Shown here: positions 26,470 through 30,842 of the stretch, piece by piece
How the letters are laid out: the number at the start of each line of letters is the position of its first letter
Position numbering within the stretch: position 1 is the first letter of the stretch
Source: Betaproteobacteria bacterium
GTDB lineage: Bacteria > Pseudomonadota > Gammaproteobacteria > Burkholderiales > Thiobacillaceae
NCBI GenBank assembly: GCA_020061585.1
Contig: JAGUXX010000302.1
Coordinates: 1 to 33,144 of the forward strand
Direction of reading: 5' to 3'
DNA length: 33,144 nt
Made by a program: the position numbers and the translations under genes
The notes under the pieces: model-generated
What the model was told of the DNA's origin: nothing
Seen by the model: only the letters and a program-made list of their open reading frames with translations
Databases searched by the model: none

Positions 26470-27186
26470 ATGGGCGCAATCGCCGCCGCCTTACAAGCCT
26501 GTCGAAAGCGCATCGCCGATGCCTGCGTGGCGGCCGGCAGGGCGCCGGACTGCGCGCGTCTGATCGCGGTCAGCAAGACCTTTCCGGCCGACGCGATCCG
26601 CGCGGCGCATGCCGCCGGCCAAACGGCTTTTGGCGAAAGCTATGTCCAGGAAGCGCTGCCCAAATTGCGGCAGCTAGCCGACTTGGCGCTCGAATGGCAT
26701 TTCATCGGCCCGCTGCAAAGCAACAAGACGCGCCAGATCGCCGCGCATTTCGACTGGGTGCATGGTCTGGATCGCCTGCACATCGCGCAACGCCTGTCCG
26801 AGCAGCGCCCCGCGGCGCTGCCGCCGTTGCAGGTCTGCATTCAGGTCAATGTCAGCGGCGAGGCCAGCAAGCATGGCGTCGCGGCGGATGCCGCGCTGGC
26901 GCTGGCCGAGGCGATCGCGACCTTGCCGAATCTGCGCTTGCGCGGTTTCATGGCGATTCCCGAAGCCGATCTTGATCCGACCGCGCAACGCCTTCGCTTT
27001 CGCCAGGTGGCCGGACTGCCGCCGGCCGGGCGTCAACGCGGCCTGGATCTCGACACCTTGTCGATGGGCATGTCCGCCGATCTGGAAGCGGCGATACACG
27101 AAGGCGCGACACTGGTCCGCGTCGGCAGCGCCATTTTCGGCAACCGGCGGCGCATTGATAACAACCAACTGGAGCAGGGACTATGA
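26470..27186 (+). CDS. yggS: YggS family pyridoxal-phosphate homeostasis protein
   Basis: 238 residues, single-domain PLP-binding TIM barrel related to the N-terminal half of alanine racemase. It binds PLP without known catalysis and keeps B6 vitamers and amino-acid pools balanced. The PLP lysine is K36 in LIAVSKTF. Other family blocks are FGESYVQEALPK, WHFIGPLQSNKTR, QVNVSGEASKHG, LSMGMSADLEAAI and VRVGSAIFG. The start ATG has GAGG four bases upstream. Its stop overlaps the proC start (ATGA, 27183); the yggS-proC pairing is widespread. Confidence 0.95.
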   Translation: MGAIAAALQACRKRIADACVAAGRAPDCARLIAVSKTFPADAIRAAHAAGQTAFGESYVQEALPKLRQLADLALEWHFIGPLQSNKTRQIAAHFDWVHGLDRLHIAQRLSEQRPAALPPLQVCIQVNVSGEASKHGVAADAALALAEAIATLPNLRLRGFMAIPEADLDPTAQRLRFRQVAGLPPAGRQRGLDLDTLSMGMSADLEAAIHEGATLVRVGSAIFGNRRRIDNNQLEQGL

Positions 27187-28010
27187 AATTGGGTTTTGTG
27201 GGCGGCGGCAACATGGCGGCGGCGATGATCGGTGGTCTGTTGCAAAAGGGTTTCCCGCTATCGGACATCCAGGTCAGCGAAACCAGCGCCGATCGACGCG
27301 CCTGGCTGGAACGCGAGTTGGGCATCCCGGCGCGGGCGGACACGGCGGCGACATTGGCGGCGGAGGTGGTGATCCTGGCGGTCAAGCCGCAGCAGTTGGC
27401 GGAGATCCTGCGTGGCTGGCCGCCGCTCGCCCCCGAACAACTGGTGATCTCCATCGCCGCCGGGGTGCGCGCCGAGGACATTTCGCGCTGGCTGGGCGGA
27501 CATGCCGCCGTGGTGCGGGCGATGCCCAATACGCCGGCTCTGGTCGGCGCCGGCATCGCTGGTCTGTACGCCTTGCCCGGCGTCAGCGATACGCAAAAGG
27601 CGCAAGCCAGCCGGGTGCTGGAAGCGGTGGGTCGCGCGGTCTGGGTCGATCAGGAAGCGCAAATCGACGCGGTGACGGCGATTTCCGGCAGTGGCCCCGC
27701 CTATGTGTTCTTTTTCATCGAGGCCCTGGAACAGGCCGGCATCGACTTGGGTTTGCCCGCCGATACCGCGCGTCTGTTGACCCTGCAAACCTTTTTCGGC
27801 GCCGCCGCGTTGGCGATCAAGGATTCATCCTCGCCGGCCGAGTTGCGCGCCCGCGTCACCTCCAAAGGCGGCACCACCGAGCGCGGCATCCTGGCGCTGG
27901 AAGAAGGTGGCGTCGCCTACGCGATTGCCCTGGCCGCCAGAGCCGCCGCCGAGCGGGCGGCGGAAATGGGTGAGTTGCTGGGCAAAAACGGCGACGGCGG
28001 TACGCTTTGA
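27183..28010 (+). CDS. proC: Pyrroline-5-carboxylate reductase
   Basis: 275 residues. Last step of proline synthesis: reduces 1-pyrroline-5-carboxylate with NAD(P)H. The Rossmann loop GFVGGGNMAAAMIGGL is at 4-19, VILAVKPQQ near 62, VRAMPNTPALVGAG near 115, the substrate-side AISGSGPAYVFFFIEAL near 163-179, and the C-terminal signature SPAELRARVTSKGGTTERGI is complete. It shares four bases with yggS and its TGA overlaps the next ATG (TGATG), so translation is coupled on both sides. Confidence 0.97.
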   Translation: MKLGFVGGGNMAAAMIGGLLQKGFPLSDIQVSETSADRRAWLERELGIPARADTAATLAAEVVILAVKPQQLAEILRGWPPLAPEQLVISIAAGVRAEDISRWLGGHAAVVRAMPNTPALVGAGIAGLYALPGVSDTQKAQASRVLEAVGRAVWVDQEAQIDAVTAISGSGPAYVFFFIEALEQAGIDLGLPADTARLLTLQTFFGAAALAIKDSSSPAELRARVTSKGGTTERGILALEEGGVAYAIALAARAAAERAAEMGELLGKNGDGGTL

Positions 28011-28588
28011 TGTTTGGCGACGCCGCCCAGTTCCTGCTGCGCACGCTGTTCGACCTGGCGGCCTGCGCGTTTTTCCTGCGTTTCTGGATGCAATGGGCGC
28101 GCGTGCCGTTTCACAACCCGTTCGCCCAGTTTGTGGTGCGCGTCACCGACTTCGCGGTCAAACCCTTGCGCCGCGTGTTGCCCGGCCTGTTCGGACTCGA
28201 CTGGGCCAGCCTGCTGCCGTTTTTTGTCGCCGAATTGTTGATGGTGTTGAGCGTGCACTGGGTCATGGGCTATCCGTTCGCCATCGCCGGCAGCGCGGTG
28301 ATTCCCGGTTTTCTGCTGCTTGCCCTGGCGTCGGCGCTGCGGCTGGTGCTGTATTTGCTAATCGGGTTTGTCGTGCTGCAAGCCATCCTGAGCTGGATCA
28401 ATCCCTTCTCGCCGCTGGCGCCGGTGTTCTATGCCCTGGCCAGGCCGGTGCTGGCGCCGTTCCAGAAGATCGTGCCGCCGTTGGGCGGCATCGACTTGTC
28501 GCCGTTGGTGGTGCTGATCGTCTTTCAATTGCTGCTGATCGCGCCTTTGGCGGGGCTGGAGCGCTATGCTCGCGGACTGGTCTGGTGA
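28010..28588 (+). CDS. YggT family membrane protein
   Basis: 192 residues, four or more hydrophobic helices in two YGGT repeats: RFWMQWARVPFHNPFAQF...VTDFAVKPLRRVLPG in the first half, and AILSWINPFSPLAPVFYALARPVLAPFQKIVPP in the second. An inner-membrane family linked by genome context to cell division or osmotic tolerance; its molecular role is not established. The ATG overlaps the proC stop and its TGA overlaps the GTG of the next gene (GTGA, 28585). Confidence 0.92.
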   Translation: MFGDAAQFLLRTLFDLAACAFFLRFWMQWARVPFHNPFAQFVVRVTDFAVKPLRRVLPGLFGLDWASLLPFFVAELLMVLSVHWVMGYPFAIAGSAVIPGFLLLALASALRLVLYLLIGFVVLQAILSWINPFSPLAPVFYALARPVLAPFQKIVPPLGGIDLSPLVVLIVFQLLLIAPLAGLERYARGLVW

Positions 28589-28881
28589 GCGCATGGATCA
28601 AACCGGTGCCTGGCGGCGCGGAAATGAACATTCACATTCAGCCCGGCGCGACCAGAAGCGAGATCGCCGGCCTGCATGGCGACGCCTTGAAGATCCGGAT
28701 TCGGGCCAGACCGATCGATGGCGCGGCGAACGCGGCATTGATCGATTTCATCGCGACATGGCTTGGCGTTCCGCGCAAGGCGGTTAGAATCCTGCGCGGT
28801 GAGAAGTCACGGCAAAAATCAGTATCGGTAGCGGTTCAGGTTGATGCAATCGAGCGGCGGCTAATGGGGAACATCGGATGA
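28585..28881 (+). CDS. DUF167 (YggU) family protein
   Basis: 98 residues from GTG 28585, which overlaps the yggT stop. The DUF167 pattern is clear: HIQPGATRSEIAGLHGDALK, then RARPIDGAANAALIDFIATW, then ILRGEKSRQKSVSV. The family is small, conserved and of unknown function, often next to yggT. A start at ATG 28624 would cut the first strand, so GTG is preferred. Its TGA overlaps the ATG of the dynamin-like gene (28878). Confidence 0.9.
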   Translation: MSAWIKPVPGGAEMNIHIQPGATRSEIAGLHGDALKIRIRARPIDGAANAALIDFIATWLGVPRKAVRILRGEKSRQKSVSVAVQVDAIERRLMGNIG

Positions 28882-30842
28882 ATTATGGTTTGGAAAGCGG
28901 CATCACCCGGTTCAAGAACCGGCGTGACAGGCTGGTGAAGGTGGTCACTGCCTACAAGGAGTGGCTGGAGCACTACGCCGTGCCCGAGCCGGAGCAATTG
29001 CTGCGTCTGTTCGACCTGACCGAGACCTTGAAGCATGATCGTCTGATGGTGGCGTTCGTCGCCGAATTCAGCCGCGGCAAGACCGAACTGATCAACGCCC
29101 TGTTTTTCTCCGACTTCAAACAGCGCCTGCTGCCGTCGGATGCCGGTCGCACCACGATGTGTCCGACCGAGATCTACTACGATGTCGATACCGAACCCTA
29201 TATCCGGCTGCTGCCGATCGAAACCCGCTTCCGCGACGACAGCATCACCGCGCTGAAGCGCCATCCGGTCGAATGGAGCACGATCAAGCTGGAGGTCAAG
29301 GACCCCAACGCGATGGTCACCGCGATGCGCAAGCTGGCGGAAACCAAGGTGGTGTTCAAGGTCGAGGCGCGCGCCCTCGGGTTATGGGACGAGAACGACC
29401 CCAATCTCGGTTACATGGTGAAGGACCCGGAACGCGTGGAGATTCCGGCCTGGCGCTACGCGATGATCAACTATCCGCATCCGCTGCTCGAATCCGGCCT
29501 GGCGATTCTCGACACGCCGGGCCTCAACGCGATGGGCGTCGAGCCGGAGTTGACCATTTCCTCGATTCCCAACGCGCATGCGCTGCTGTTTCTGCTGGCC
29601 ACCGATACCGGGGTGACGCAGTCCGATTTCGAAATCTGGAACAAGTGGGTGTCGCGCCATTCCGGCCAGCATTATGCCGTGTTGAACAAGATCGACATGC
29701 TGTGGGACGACTTGAAGACGCCGGAGGAGATCGGCCGCACCATCCAGCGCCAGATCGAATCCACCGCCGCGCAACTGAATATCGCGGCGTCCAGTGTCAT
29801 GGCGATTTCGGCGCAAAAGGCGCTGGTCGGCAAGATCCGCAACGATGCCGAGCTGCTCAAGCGCTCCGGCATCCAGGGTCTGGAAGTGATGCTGGCGCGG
29901 GAAATCATCCCCTCGCGCGAAAAAATCATGCGCGAATCGATGGCCCGCGAAATCGGCCCGCTGTTGTCCGAAACCCGCGAAACCGCGCACAACCGCATCC
30001 AGGCATCGCGCCAGAATCTGCTTGATCTGCAAGCCCTGTCGGGCAAGAACCAGCAGATCGTCGGCCAGATGCGGGAAAAAATGCTGTATGACAAACAGCT
30101 ATACGACGAGACAACGCGCAACTTCACGGTCACCCGCAAAGTCGTCGCGCAGCAAGGTTGGGAATTGCTGGCCCGCCTCGACGACGACCGGATGGACAAG
30201 ATCATCGAGGAATCGATGATGGCGATCAACGACAGTTGGACCACCGCCGGCCTGATCAAGGGCATGCATCTGCTGATCCGCCGGATGGGCGCCGAATTCG
30301 ATTTCGCCCACCAACAGGCCGGCGGCATCAAACAACTGCTCAACTCCGCCTATCAGCGCTTCCATGAAGTGCATGGCCTGGAACTGTGCGACCCGCCGAT
30401 GCTGGATCTGTCGCGCTATCGCGCGCGGCTCGACGAGTTGATGATCAGCACCCAGGAATTCTGCGCCGACCCGCTGAACATCATGCTGGAAAAGCGCTTC
30501 ATGGTGAAGAAGTTCTACATCGCGCTGGTCACCCAGGCGCGCATCCTGTTTCAGCAGGTGCGCATCGAATCGGAAACCTGGCTGCGCCTGACCCTGGATC
30601 CGATCGTCGAGCGAATTACCGAACACAAGTCGCAACTGGAACACCGTCTGGAAAACCTCAACAAGGTGCACGCCAATCTCGGATCGATACAGGAGCGCAC
30701 CGCTGTGGTAAGTCGCGAAATCGTCGAAATACGTGCTCAAGTCGAACAGATCGAAACCATCGCCAAGGAGTTTTCGCTGCTCACCGGCGTCGCTTTTCGG
30801 GCGCTGGAGTTGGCCCCCGGTCAACTCGCGCAGAACAAGTAA
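28878..30842 (+). CDS. Dynamin-like GTPase
   Basis: 654 residues. G domain ~50-330: P-loop VAEFSRGKT at 61-69, switch-I TTMCPTE at 92-98, DTPG at 212-215 and NKID at 270-273. Long helical stalk ~350-650 with coiled-coil stretches, and no obvious membrane helix or paddle. The P-loop has Ala where the canonical GxxxxGK[ST] has its first Gly. About 110 residues are inserted between switch I and DTPG. Bacterial dynamin-like proteins bind and reshape membranes; the role of this one is unknown. It overlaps the DUF167 gene by four bases and ends the yggS-proC-yggT operon, suggesting an envelope-related job. Confidence 0.88.
   Translation: MNYGLESGITRFKNRRDRLVKVVTAYKEWLEHYAVPEPEQLLRLFDLTETLKHDRLMVAFVAEFSRGKTELINALFFSDFKQRLLPSDAGRTTMCPTEIYYDVDTEPYIRLLPIETRFRDDSITALKRHPVEWSTIKLEVKDPNAMVTAMRKLAETKVVFKVEARALGLWDENDPNLGYMVKDPERVEIPAWRYAMINYPHPLLESGLAILDTPGLNAMGVEPELTISSIPNAHALLFLLATDTGVTQSDFEIWNKWVSRHSGQHYAVLNKIDMLWDDLKTPEEIGRTIQRQIESTAAQLNIAASSVMAISAQKALVGKIRNDAELLKRSGIQGLEVMLAREIIPSREKIMRESMAREIGPLLSETRETAHNRIQASRQNLLDLQALSGKNQQIVGQMREKMLYDKQLYDETTRNFTVTRKVVAQQGWELLARLDDDRMDKIIEESMMAINDSWTTAGLIKGMHLLIRRMGAEFDFAHQQAGGIKQLLNSAYQRFHEVHGLELCDPPMLDLSRYRARLDELMISTQEFCADPLNIMLEKRFMVKKFYIALVTQARILFQQVRIESETWLRLTLDPIVERITEHKSQLEHRLENLNKVHANLGSIQERTAVVSREIVEIRAQVEQIETIAKEFSLLTGVAFRALELAPGQLAQNK

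Follow-up and report, generated by a model that had tools for sequence, protein, structure and literature searches.

A candidate membrane-remodelling GTPase of the dynamin family encoded 3' of yggT

Why does a dynamin-like GTPase stand at the end of a yggS-proC-yggT-DUF167 gene cluster, and how closely is it bound to these neighbours? The question is raised by a 33,144-nucleotide stretch of DNA (positions 1 to 33,144 of contig JAGUXX010000302.1, assembly GCA_020061585.1), here called the window, from a Betaproteobacteria bacterium of the Thiobacillaceae whose draft genome comprises 4.59 Mb in 336 contigs. A first-pass annotation, made from the sequence, described the GTPase as locked into this operon and suggested that it acts with the membrane protein YggT. 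What sequence or prediction establishes is a protein with intact GTPase motifs, a predicted G domain set on an extended stalk of helices, a position 3' of yggT retained across the class, and no transmembrane segment. Our analysis makes it a genuine candidate for membrane remodelling and not a partner locked to its neighbours.

By its motifs and predicted fold, the GTPase is a bacterial dynamin-like protein (DLP). It carries a Dynamin_N G domain with the G1 to G4 motifs intact (PF00350 and alignment), as BDLP/mitofusin-like proteins do, and A62, E63, R66, G67, and K68 of G1 are invariant in all 39 aligned relatives, as is T93, probably the switch threonine. The P-loop reads AEFSRGKT, as the first-pass annotation had it. 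The general P-loop pattern is [AG]xxxxGK[ST] (PROSITE PS00017), and the first residue is Ala in 107 of 120 rows and Gly in the other 13, so that the departure from GxxxxGKT once taken for an oddity is a family trait and a P-loop defect is ruled out. The absence of a membrane anchor was confirmed, no transmembrane-like stretch being present in the GTPase (highest 19-residue Kyte-Doolittle mean, 1.18). An AlphaFold2 model based on the 39-row alignment (predicted local distance difference test, pLDDT, 86.7; predicted template modelling score, pTM, 0.64) places the G domain before helices of about 100 residues that run out and back (332–433, 456–499, and 539–636). The neck and trunk helical bundles that follow the G domain in BDLP/mitofusin members are present in this predicted model, with their arrangement unsure at this pTM.

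Comparison of the predicted model with known structures placed it among the dynamin-like proteins. Foldseek matched it to BDLP (E = 5.6e-21), IniA (2.2e-16), SynDLP (2.8e-15), and Cj-DLP (8.8e-14), and VIA-align gave Z = 26.9 for Mfn1 (root mean square deviation (rmsd) 3.4, 356 aligned), 22.8 for Cj-DLP 5owv_B (4.1, 312), 21.8 for IniA (4.5, 326), and 21.7 for BDLP (4.6, 370). Similarly, a profile search of PDB sequences returned BDLP (4e-22), mitofusin-2 (5.9e-9), SynDLP (6.3e-8), LeoA (1.5e-7), and IniA (2.4e-6). The predicted fold agrees domain by domain and not as one rigid body.

The linkage to yggT is kept across the class that holds the beta and gamma lineages and is no local accident. 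Relatives were found in 71 of 120 genomes drawn from the order, 69 of 274 drawn from the class, and 17 of 200 drawn from the phylum, all 17 belonging to the same class. We retrieved 100 regions, each 4.6 to 13.5 kb long (loci numbered with L); of the 66 matching genomes outside the order, 48 were sampled in this way, mostly one per family and chosen before contexts were inspected. A GTPase was scored as linked when yggT, proC, or DUF167 could be recognised on its strand in the 4 kb upstream, and GTPase start codons outside the window were chosen by script. The named genomes (metagenome bins such as Hydrogenophilales, Thiobacillaceae, and Betaproteobacteria) supplied 37 loci. In 33 of these, yggT precedes the GTPase on the same strand; the other four (L048, L056, L061, and L063) meet a contig end no more than 645 bases from the match. 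A quick, midpoint-rooted tree with long branches flagged was built from 120 of 240 dynamin open reading frames, leaving aside repeat fetches, additional loci belonging to this genus or to the mutM type, and partials; a single gene is entered twice, as L030 and L102. It separates into a branch of 85 rows, 81 of them yggT-linked, and a branch of 35 rows, 30 of them with mutM upstream, and the context labels change 9 times on it against a mean of 35 in shuffles. The linkage is thus kept far beyond this genus, and the "mostly unrelated contexts" that the first-pass annotation had named as evidence against its view were not found.

The rows scored as "other" are L105, L173, L206, and L208 in the yggT-linked branch and L134, L139, L182, L209, and L237 in the mutM-linked branch. 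Of these, L105 retains rng and maf, and the homoserine O-succinyltransferase gene near L206 and the HemN_C radical-SAM gene near L208 are possibly remnants of the same cluster. Off the tree, the same score was given to L077 and L085, which identity places in the mutM type, to L166 and L169, with only 1.5 kb of flank and 409 bases of upstream sequence respectively, and to the contig-end pieces L029, L056, L061, and L063; L076, L081, and L151, also off it, repeat L134, L139, and L182. When the 100 regions were clustered, 20 loci had a metX family and 18 an rng family within 5 kb downstream, and every one of these loci belongs to the yggT clade. The downstream side is therefore variable while the yggT side persists, indicating that the tie is to the yggT side. 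A phage or plasmid gene was ruled out: the phage collection gave no match, and the plasmid collection gave two distant ones, both cyanobacterial. As side observations, the distance from yggT to the GTPase is about 1.0–1.3 kb in 6 of the 33 loci (L058, L059, L060, L062, L064, and L065), and the yggT-clade GTPases of L058–L065 and L105 carry long extensions at the C terminus, which bring them to 760–891 residues, that of L105 being rich in Ala and Pro; the L063 GTPase is without its start, and the L064 GTPase holds a stop.

The mutM-linked sister type is also present in the window's genome, which holds one GTPase of each type, 36% identical. The paralogue lies on another contig (C264, L133:5944-7902), where mutM precedes it by about 120 bases and coaD and rsmD are convergent. 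In a count by hand of 120 Burkholderiales genomes, 32 had the yggT type, 52 the mutM type, and 14 both (13.9 expected if independent), and 49 gave no match and one (G116) only divergent fragments; an obligate pair of the two types was accordingly rejected as the default. The mutM type was assigned by at least 43% identity to the query (47) or by place on the tree (5), and the yggT type by the tree or, for G022, G042, G090, and G148, by at most 40% identity; no type was given to the second copy in G147, which is broken, or to the divergent additional copies in G050, G069, G097, G113, and G115. One genome (G235) bears three dynamins, namely a mutM-linked one (L171), a yggT-linked one (L172), and a further copy of the yggT clade that has recJ in its vicinity (L173), and three long-branched mutM-linked copies (L130, L131, and L132) belong to families f17 and f23, with the L132 P-loop reading AESGRGKS.

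The tightness of the tie differs between lineages. Re-reading and family profiles upheld the five gene coordinates and all four overlapping junctions in the window (Table 1). Across the relatives, the GTPase start overlaps the preceding recognised gene in 18 of the 32 rows on the beta side (which include one gene twice) and in none of 49 gamma-side rows, where gaps of 18–614 bases separate it from the nearest recognised gene. That gene is yggT in 9 beta and 19 gamma rows, in which DUF167 is missing or too divergent to detect. The translational tying described by the first-pass annotation stands for this locus and the 18 beta-side rows and fails in all 49 gamma-side rows; judged from these sequences, it is lineage-specific, and "locked" is too strong a word. 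Moreover, six family genomes without a yggT-type GTPase retain yggS-proC-yggT. In two of them (L259 and L260), DUF167 is followed directly by rng, with 28 and 136 bases between match ends; in L257, rng is present but DUF167 gave no match; in L258, about 0.9 kb separates yggT from DUF167; and L261 and L262 show neither DUF167 nor rng in the stretch fetched.

A promoter-like element inside DUF167 is a probable, putative promoter of the GTPase itself in this genus and near genera. The generic scan alone was weak (3 sites in the region versus 1.0 expected). However, across 24 loci of this genus and near genera, whose GTPases are 77–100% identical, TANAAT within GTTANAATC starts 93–180 bases before the GTPase in every case, mostly inside DUF167, and the strict pair, with a TTG box at 16 bases, is present in 18 of the 24 and in none of 169 windows inside GTPase genes. 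The codons of the motif are seldom used in GTPase genes, where GTT makes up 4.9% of Val codons, AGA 0.2% of Arg codons, and CTT 2.7% of Leu codons. Within DUF167, GTT accounts for 30 of 48 Val codons inside the stretch and 22 of 115 outside it, AGA for 19 of 62 and 13 of 199 Arg codons, and CTT for 19 of 42 and 12 of 138 Leu codons, a contrast that is smaller than that with the GTPase genes yet holds. The residue over the free base of the motif varies among Arg, Lys, and Thr, and the flanking bases are unchanged. In addition, GTTANAATC was absent from all six GTPase-less family loci searched (3.6 kb each), and the same codons in three GTPase-less family members with DUF167 are GTC AAG CTG, GTC CGG CTG, and GTC GTC CTG. 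The 24 loci are kin and do not count as independent events, and a conserved DUF167 protein motif explains part of the conservation. At one locus (L049:3280-3420), the frame before the GTPase is unlike DUF167 and gave no DUF167 match at 1e-5, yet the GTTACAATC element is kept. An own promoter was rejected as a general feature of yggT-type loci, the strict pair occurring in only 1 of 38 other beta-side rows; it occurs in 8 of 60 gamma-set rows, some mutM-type rows included, and in 1 of 43 mutM-set rows. Transcription from a separate promoter had been named beforehand as evidence against locking, and sequence evidence of that kind is partly in hand for this genus and near genera; the other beta-side rows do not share it, apart from the one with a strict pair.

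The far tip of the stalk probably lies near residues 434–456 and 531–541, within a wider tip region of about 434–460 and 528–546. In the 85 rows of the yggT-linked branch, conservation is 0.89 for W454, 0.88 for T455, 0.96 for T456, and 0.94 for G458; in the 35 rows of the mutM-linked branch, position 454 is mixed (Leu 0.23) and position 455 is Phe (0.63), with T456 (0.49) and G458 (0.71) partly shared. Likewise, the FCADPLNIMLEKRFMVKKF element has F528 (0.86), E538 (0.86), and F546 (0.96) in the former, and His (0.51), Glu (0.46), and Phe (0.86) at these positions in the latter. In this alignment, W454, T455, and F528 mark the yggT-linked clade, whereas T456, G458, and F546 are partly common to the mutM-linked clade. 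These conserved residues only suggest a candidate role as a lipid-binding tip or paddle. In Cj-DLP2, the tip mutation FVLF530-534EEEE is reported to inhibit lipid binding, and that tip is called equivalent to the BDLP paddle (PMC6104087).

The features of the locus are collected in Table 1. Two PilT/PilU-family genes lie 5' of yggS and diverge from the five-gene set, and 3' of the GTPase the ribonuclease G gene (rng) and a Maf-family gene are convergent with it.

Table 1. Coordinates of genes, motifs, and putative elements in the window
Feature	Position	Strand	Evidence or remark
yggS, PLP-binding protein	26470..27186	+	TIGR00044 2e-69
proC, pyrroline-5-carboxylate reductase	27183..28010	+	TIGR00112 1.3e-76; ATGA, 4-base overlap with yggS
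yggT, YGGT-family membrane protein, two YGGT stretches	28010..28588	+	PF02325 4.4e-30; ATG start 28010; TGATG, 1-base overlap with proC
DUF167 (YggU family)	28585..28881	+	TIGR00251 3.9e-26; GTG start 28585; GTGA, 4-base overlap with yggT
Promoter-like TTGGCG-16-TAGAAT, inside DUF167, 87 bases before GTPase ATG	28763..28790	+	Generic promoter scan and conservation
Dynamin-like GTPase, yggT-linked clade (DLP-Y, our own name), 654 aa	28878..30842	+	Dynamin_N PF00350 3.5e-14, 53.6 bits versus cut-off 27; ATGA, 4-base overlap with DUF167
G1 P-loop AEFSRGKT, residues 62-69	29061..29084	+	First position Ala or Gly in 120 rows
G3 DTPGLNA, residues 212-218	29511..29531	+	D212-L216 invariant in 39/39 aligned proteins; N217 and A218 nearly so
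G4 NKID, residues 270-273	29685..29696	+	N270, K271, and D273 invariant in 39/39
SWTTAGL turn, residues 453-459, probable stalk tip; W454 and T455 mark yggT clade	30234..30254	+	Conservation and helix map
FCADPLNIMLEKRFMVKKF, residues 528-546, probable second tip element, candidate membrane contact	30459..30515	+	Conservation; helix lengths

The GTPase was compared with the closest known systems. BDLP1 of Nostoc punctiforme (2j68/2j69) is the best match by both sequence profile and Foldseek and has the same G domain with neck and trunk helices, although its identity to the window GTPase is about 14–18%. Mitofusins 1 and 2 include the best structural Z (Mfn1), and the P-loop region aligns with that of Mfn2; however, the window GTPase is without their transmembrane anchor, and the solved mitofusins are truncated, the comparison stopping short of the far stalk. 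Cj-DLP1 and Cj-DLP2 of Campylobacter jejuni resemble it in fold and long stalk. They form an operon pair in which GTP hydrolysis is described as needing both partners (PMC6104087), whereas here there is one GTPase gene per locus, the two clades occur together at about the rate expected from independence, and no second DLP gene stands beside the window GTPase, whose neighbours are DUF167 and ribonuclease G. RdcA (CrfC/YjdA) of Escherichia coli, also without an anchor, matches in the G domain (hhalign probability 95.1, E = 3.3e-8), but the match is confined to it (profile columns 54–324), and no rdcB-like partner is found among the adjacent genes, rdcB not having been sought elsewhere in the genome. 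LeoA and LeoBC gave weak PADLOC scores (LeoBC 7.7e-12, 43.1 bits; LeoA 8.1e-10, 36.4 bits) and a fold Z of 15.9 but with an rmsd of 21.6, and for the LeoA/HP0731 subfamily (NF041922) the GTPase scores 10.1 bits against an NCBIfam cut-off of 325 and is without the paired genes. No NCBIfam cut-off was reached by any of the four members scanned, namely the window GTPase, the mutM-type paralogue, and two gamma-side yggT-type relatives of different lineages. A Pseudomonas DLP from a transposon screen was ruled out as the same gene, because it is described as an orthologue of LeoA and is followed by a phage integrase gene (PMC6344628). No description of a dynamin in a yggT locus was found among the literature matches listed, subscription papers being outside their scope.

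On balance, we favour, as somewhat probable, a soluble GTPase of mitofusin/BDLP fold that is peripheral on the inner membrane via its stalk tip, is expressed together with the cluster and, in this genome and those near it, probably also on its own. Read-through and translational overlap would provide expression with yggS-proC-yggT-DUF167, and the own promoter inside DUF167, probable in this genus and near genera, would allow the dose of GTPase to be set apart from the upstream genes. The protein would form oligomers of its own and dock on the cytoplasmic face through the wider tip region, and GTP binding and hydrolysis would swing the stalk such that the membrane is tethered, curved, or stabilised; YggT may serve as its dock. 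Several points weigh against this reading. Ordinary GTPases, such as EngA (7.4e-7), also match the GTPase profile in the PDB sequence search; full-length superposition is poor (Foldseek TM-scores of about 0.4 and rmsd above 50 for BDLP), which with the pTM makes the arrangement of G domain and stalk unsure; and the probable tip position was drawn from helix lengths, not model coordinates. The control windows for the promoter-like pair came from GTPase genes, with other operon junctions not among them. Furthermore, most bacterial DLPs are described as paired in operons (PMC6104087), whereas the window GTPase is single at its locus, and E. coli RdcA is reported as an instance of a dynamin-like GTPase that is soluble and has a protein as its target (PMC6510439). 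A nucleoid or signalling switch of the RdcA/CrfC kind, acting on a protein partner and not on lipid, would fit the missing anchor, the G domain match, and the position of the sister clade beside the DNA glycosylase gene mutM; yet we consider it unlikely, given that the RdcA match is limited to the G domain while those to membrane-active DLPs span the first to the last helix.

A nearly even chance is given to the GTPase being a passenger that rides with yggS-proC-yggT for steady expression, its order surviving by descent and with no physical link to YggT. The six GTPase-less genomes that retain the upstream genes, including the two in which DUF167 leads directly to rng, and the probable own promoter agree with this, although it would not lead one to expect downstream genes that vary while the yggT side persists. 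Co-evolution speaks for it as well: among 73 loci with all five proteins, no YggT-specific signal was seen and shared descent dominates, the partial distance correlation being 0.31 for DLP-YggT versus 0.45 for DLP-ProC and 0.45 for DLP-PilT. The same values tell against a membrane machine in which the stalk tip binds YggT and YggT places GTPase oligomers at division or envelope-assembly sites, as does the presence of YggT in 13 of 14 genomes chosen for lacking a yggT-type GTPase. Hence, the joint action with YggT proposed by the first-pass annotation finds no support here, and the partnership is possible but unsupported. YggT as a dock is attractive because the YggT/YlmG homologue SepG is reported to localise the division complex and affect nucleoids in Streptomyces (PMC4852450), other homologues are tied to nucleoid distribution in cyanobacteria and plastids (PMC2923531), and RdcA is described as docking on the transmembrane MASE1 domain of DgcE (PMC6510439); linkage across the class and the clade-marking W454 and T455 point the same way, while plant YlmG1 was tied in 2026 to preprotein import (PMC13399175). 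Overall, we judge such a machine improbable. A fuller version, in which an unpaired mitofusin-like GTPase kept across the class takes YggT as membrane receptor via its clade-marked tip (SWTT-G-L and [DS]P...E..F..KKF), the yggS-yggT cluster is home to a division- or envelope-linked remodelling machine, and the sister clade has a parallel job tied to mutM, is more doubtful still. An anti-phage dynamin of the LeoABC/Eleos kind is very improbable: the PADLOC hits that favour it have low scores such as a dynamin G domain may give, and the GTPase is a single gene in a housekeeping locus, with the phage and plasmid collections offering nothing closer than the two distant matches.

The few bacterial dynamins known so far are mostly paired or accessory, and here two old groups each stand beside one housekeeping gene set across the class. 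The natural absences of the GTPase, its predicted own promoter, and the clade-marked tip residues would offer a genetic handle on YggT and on single bacterial dynamins.

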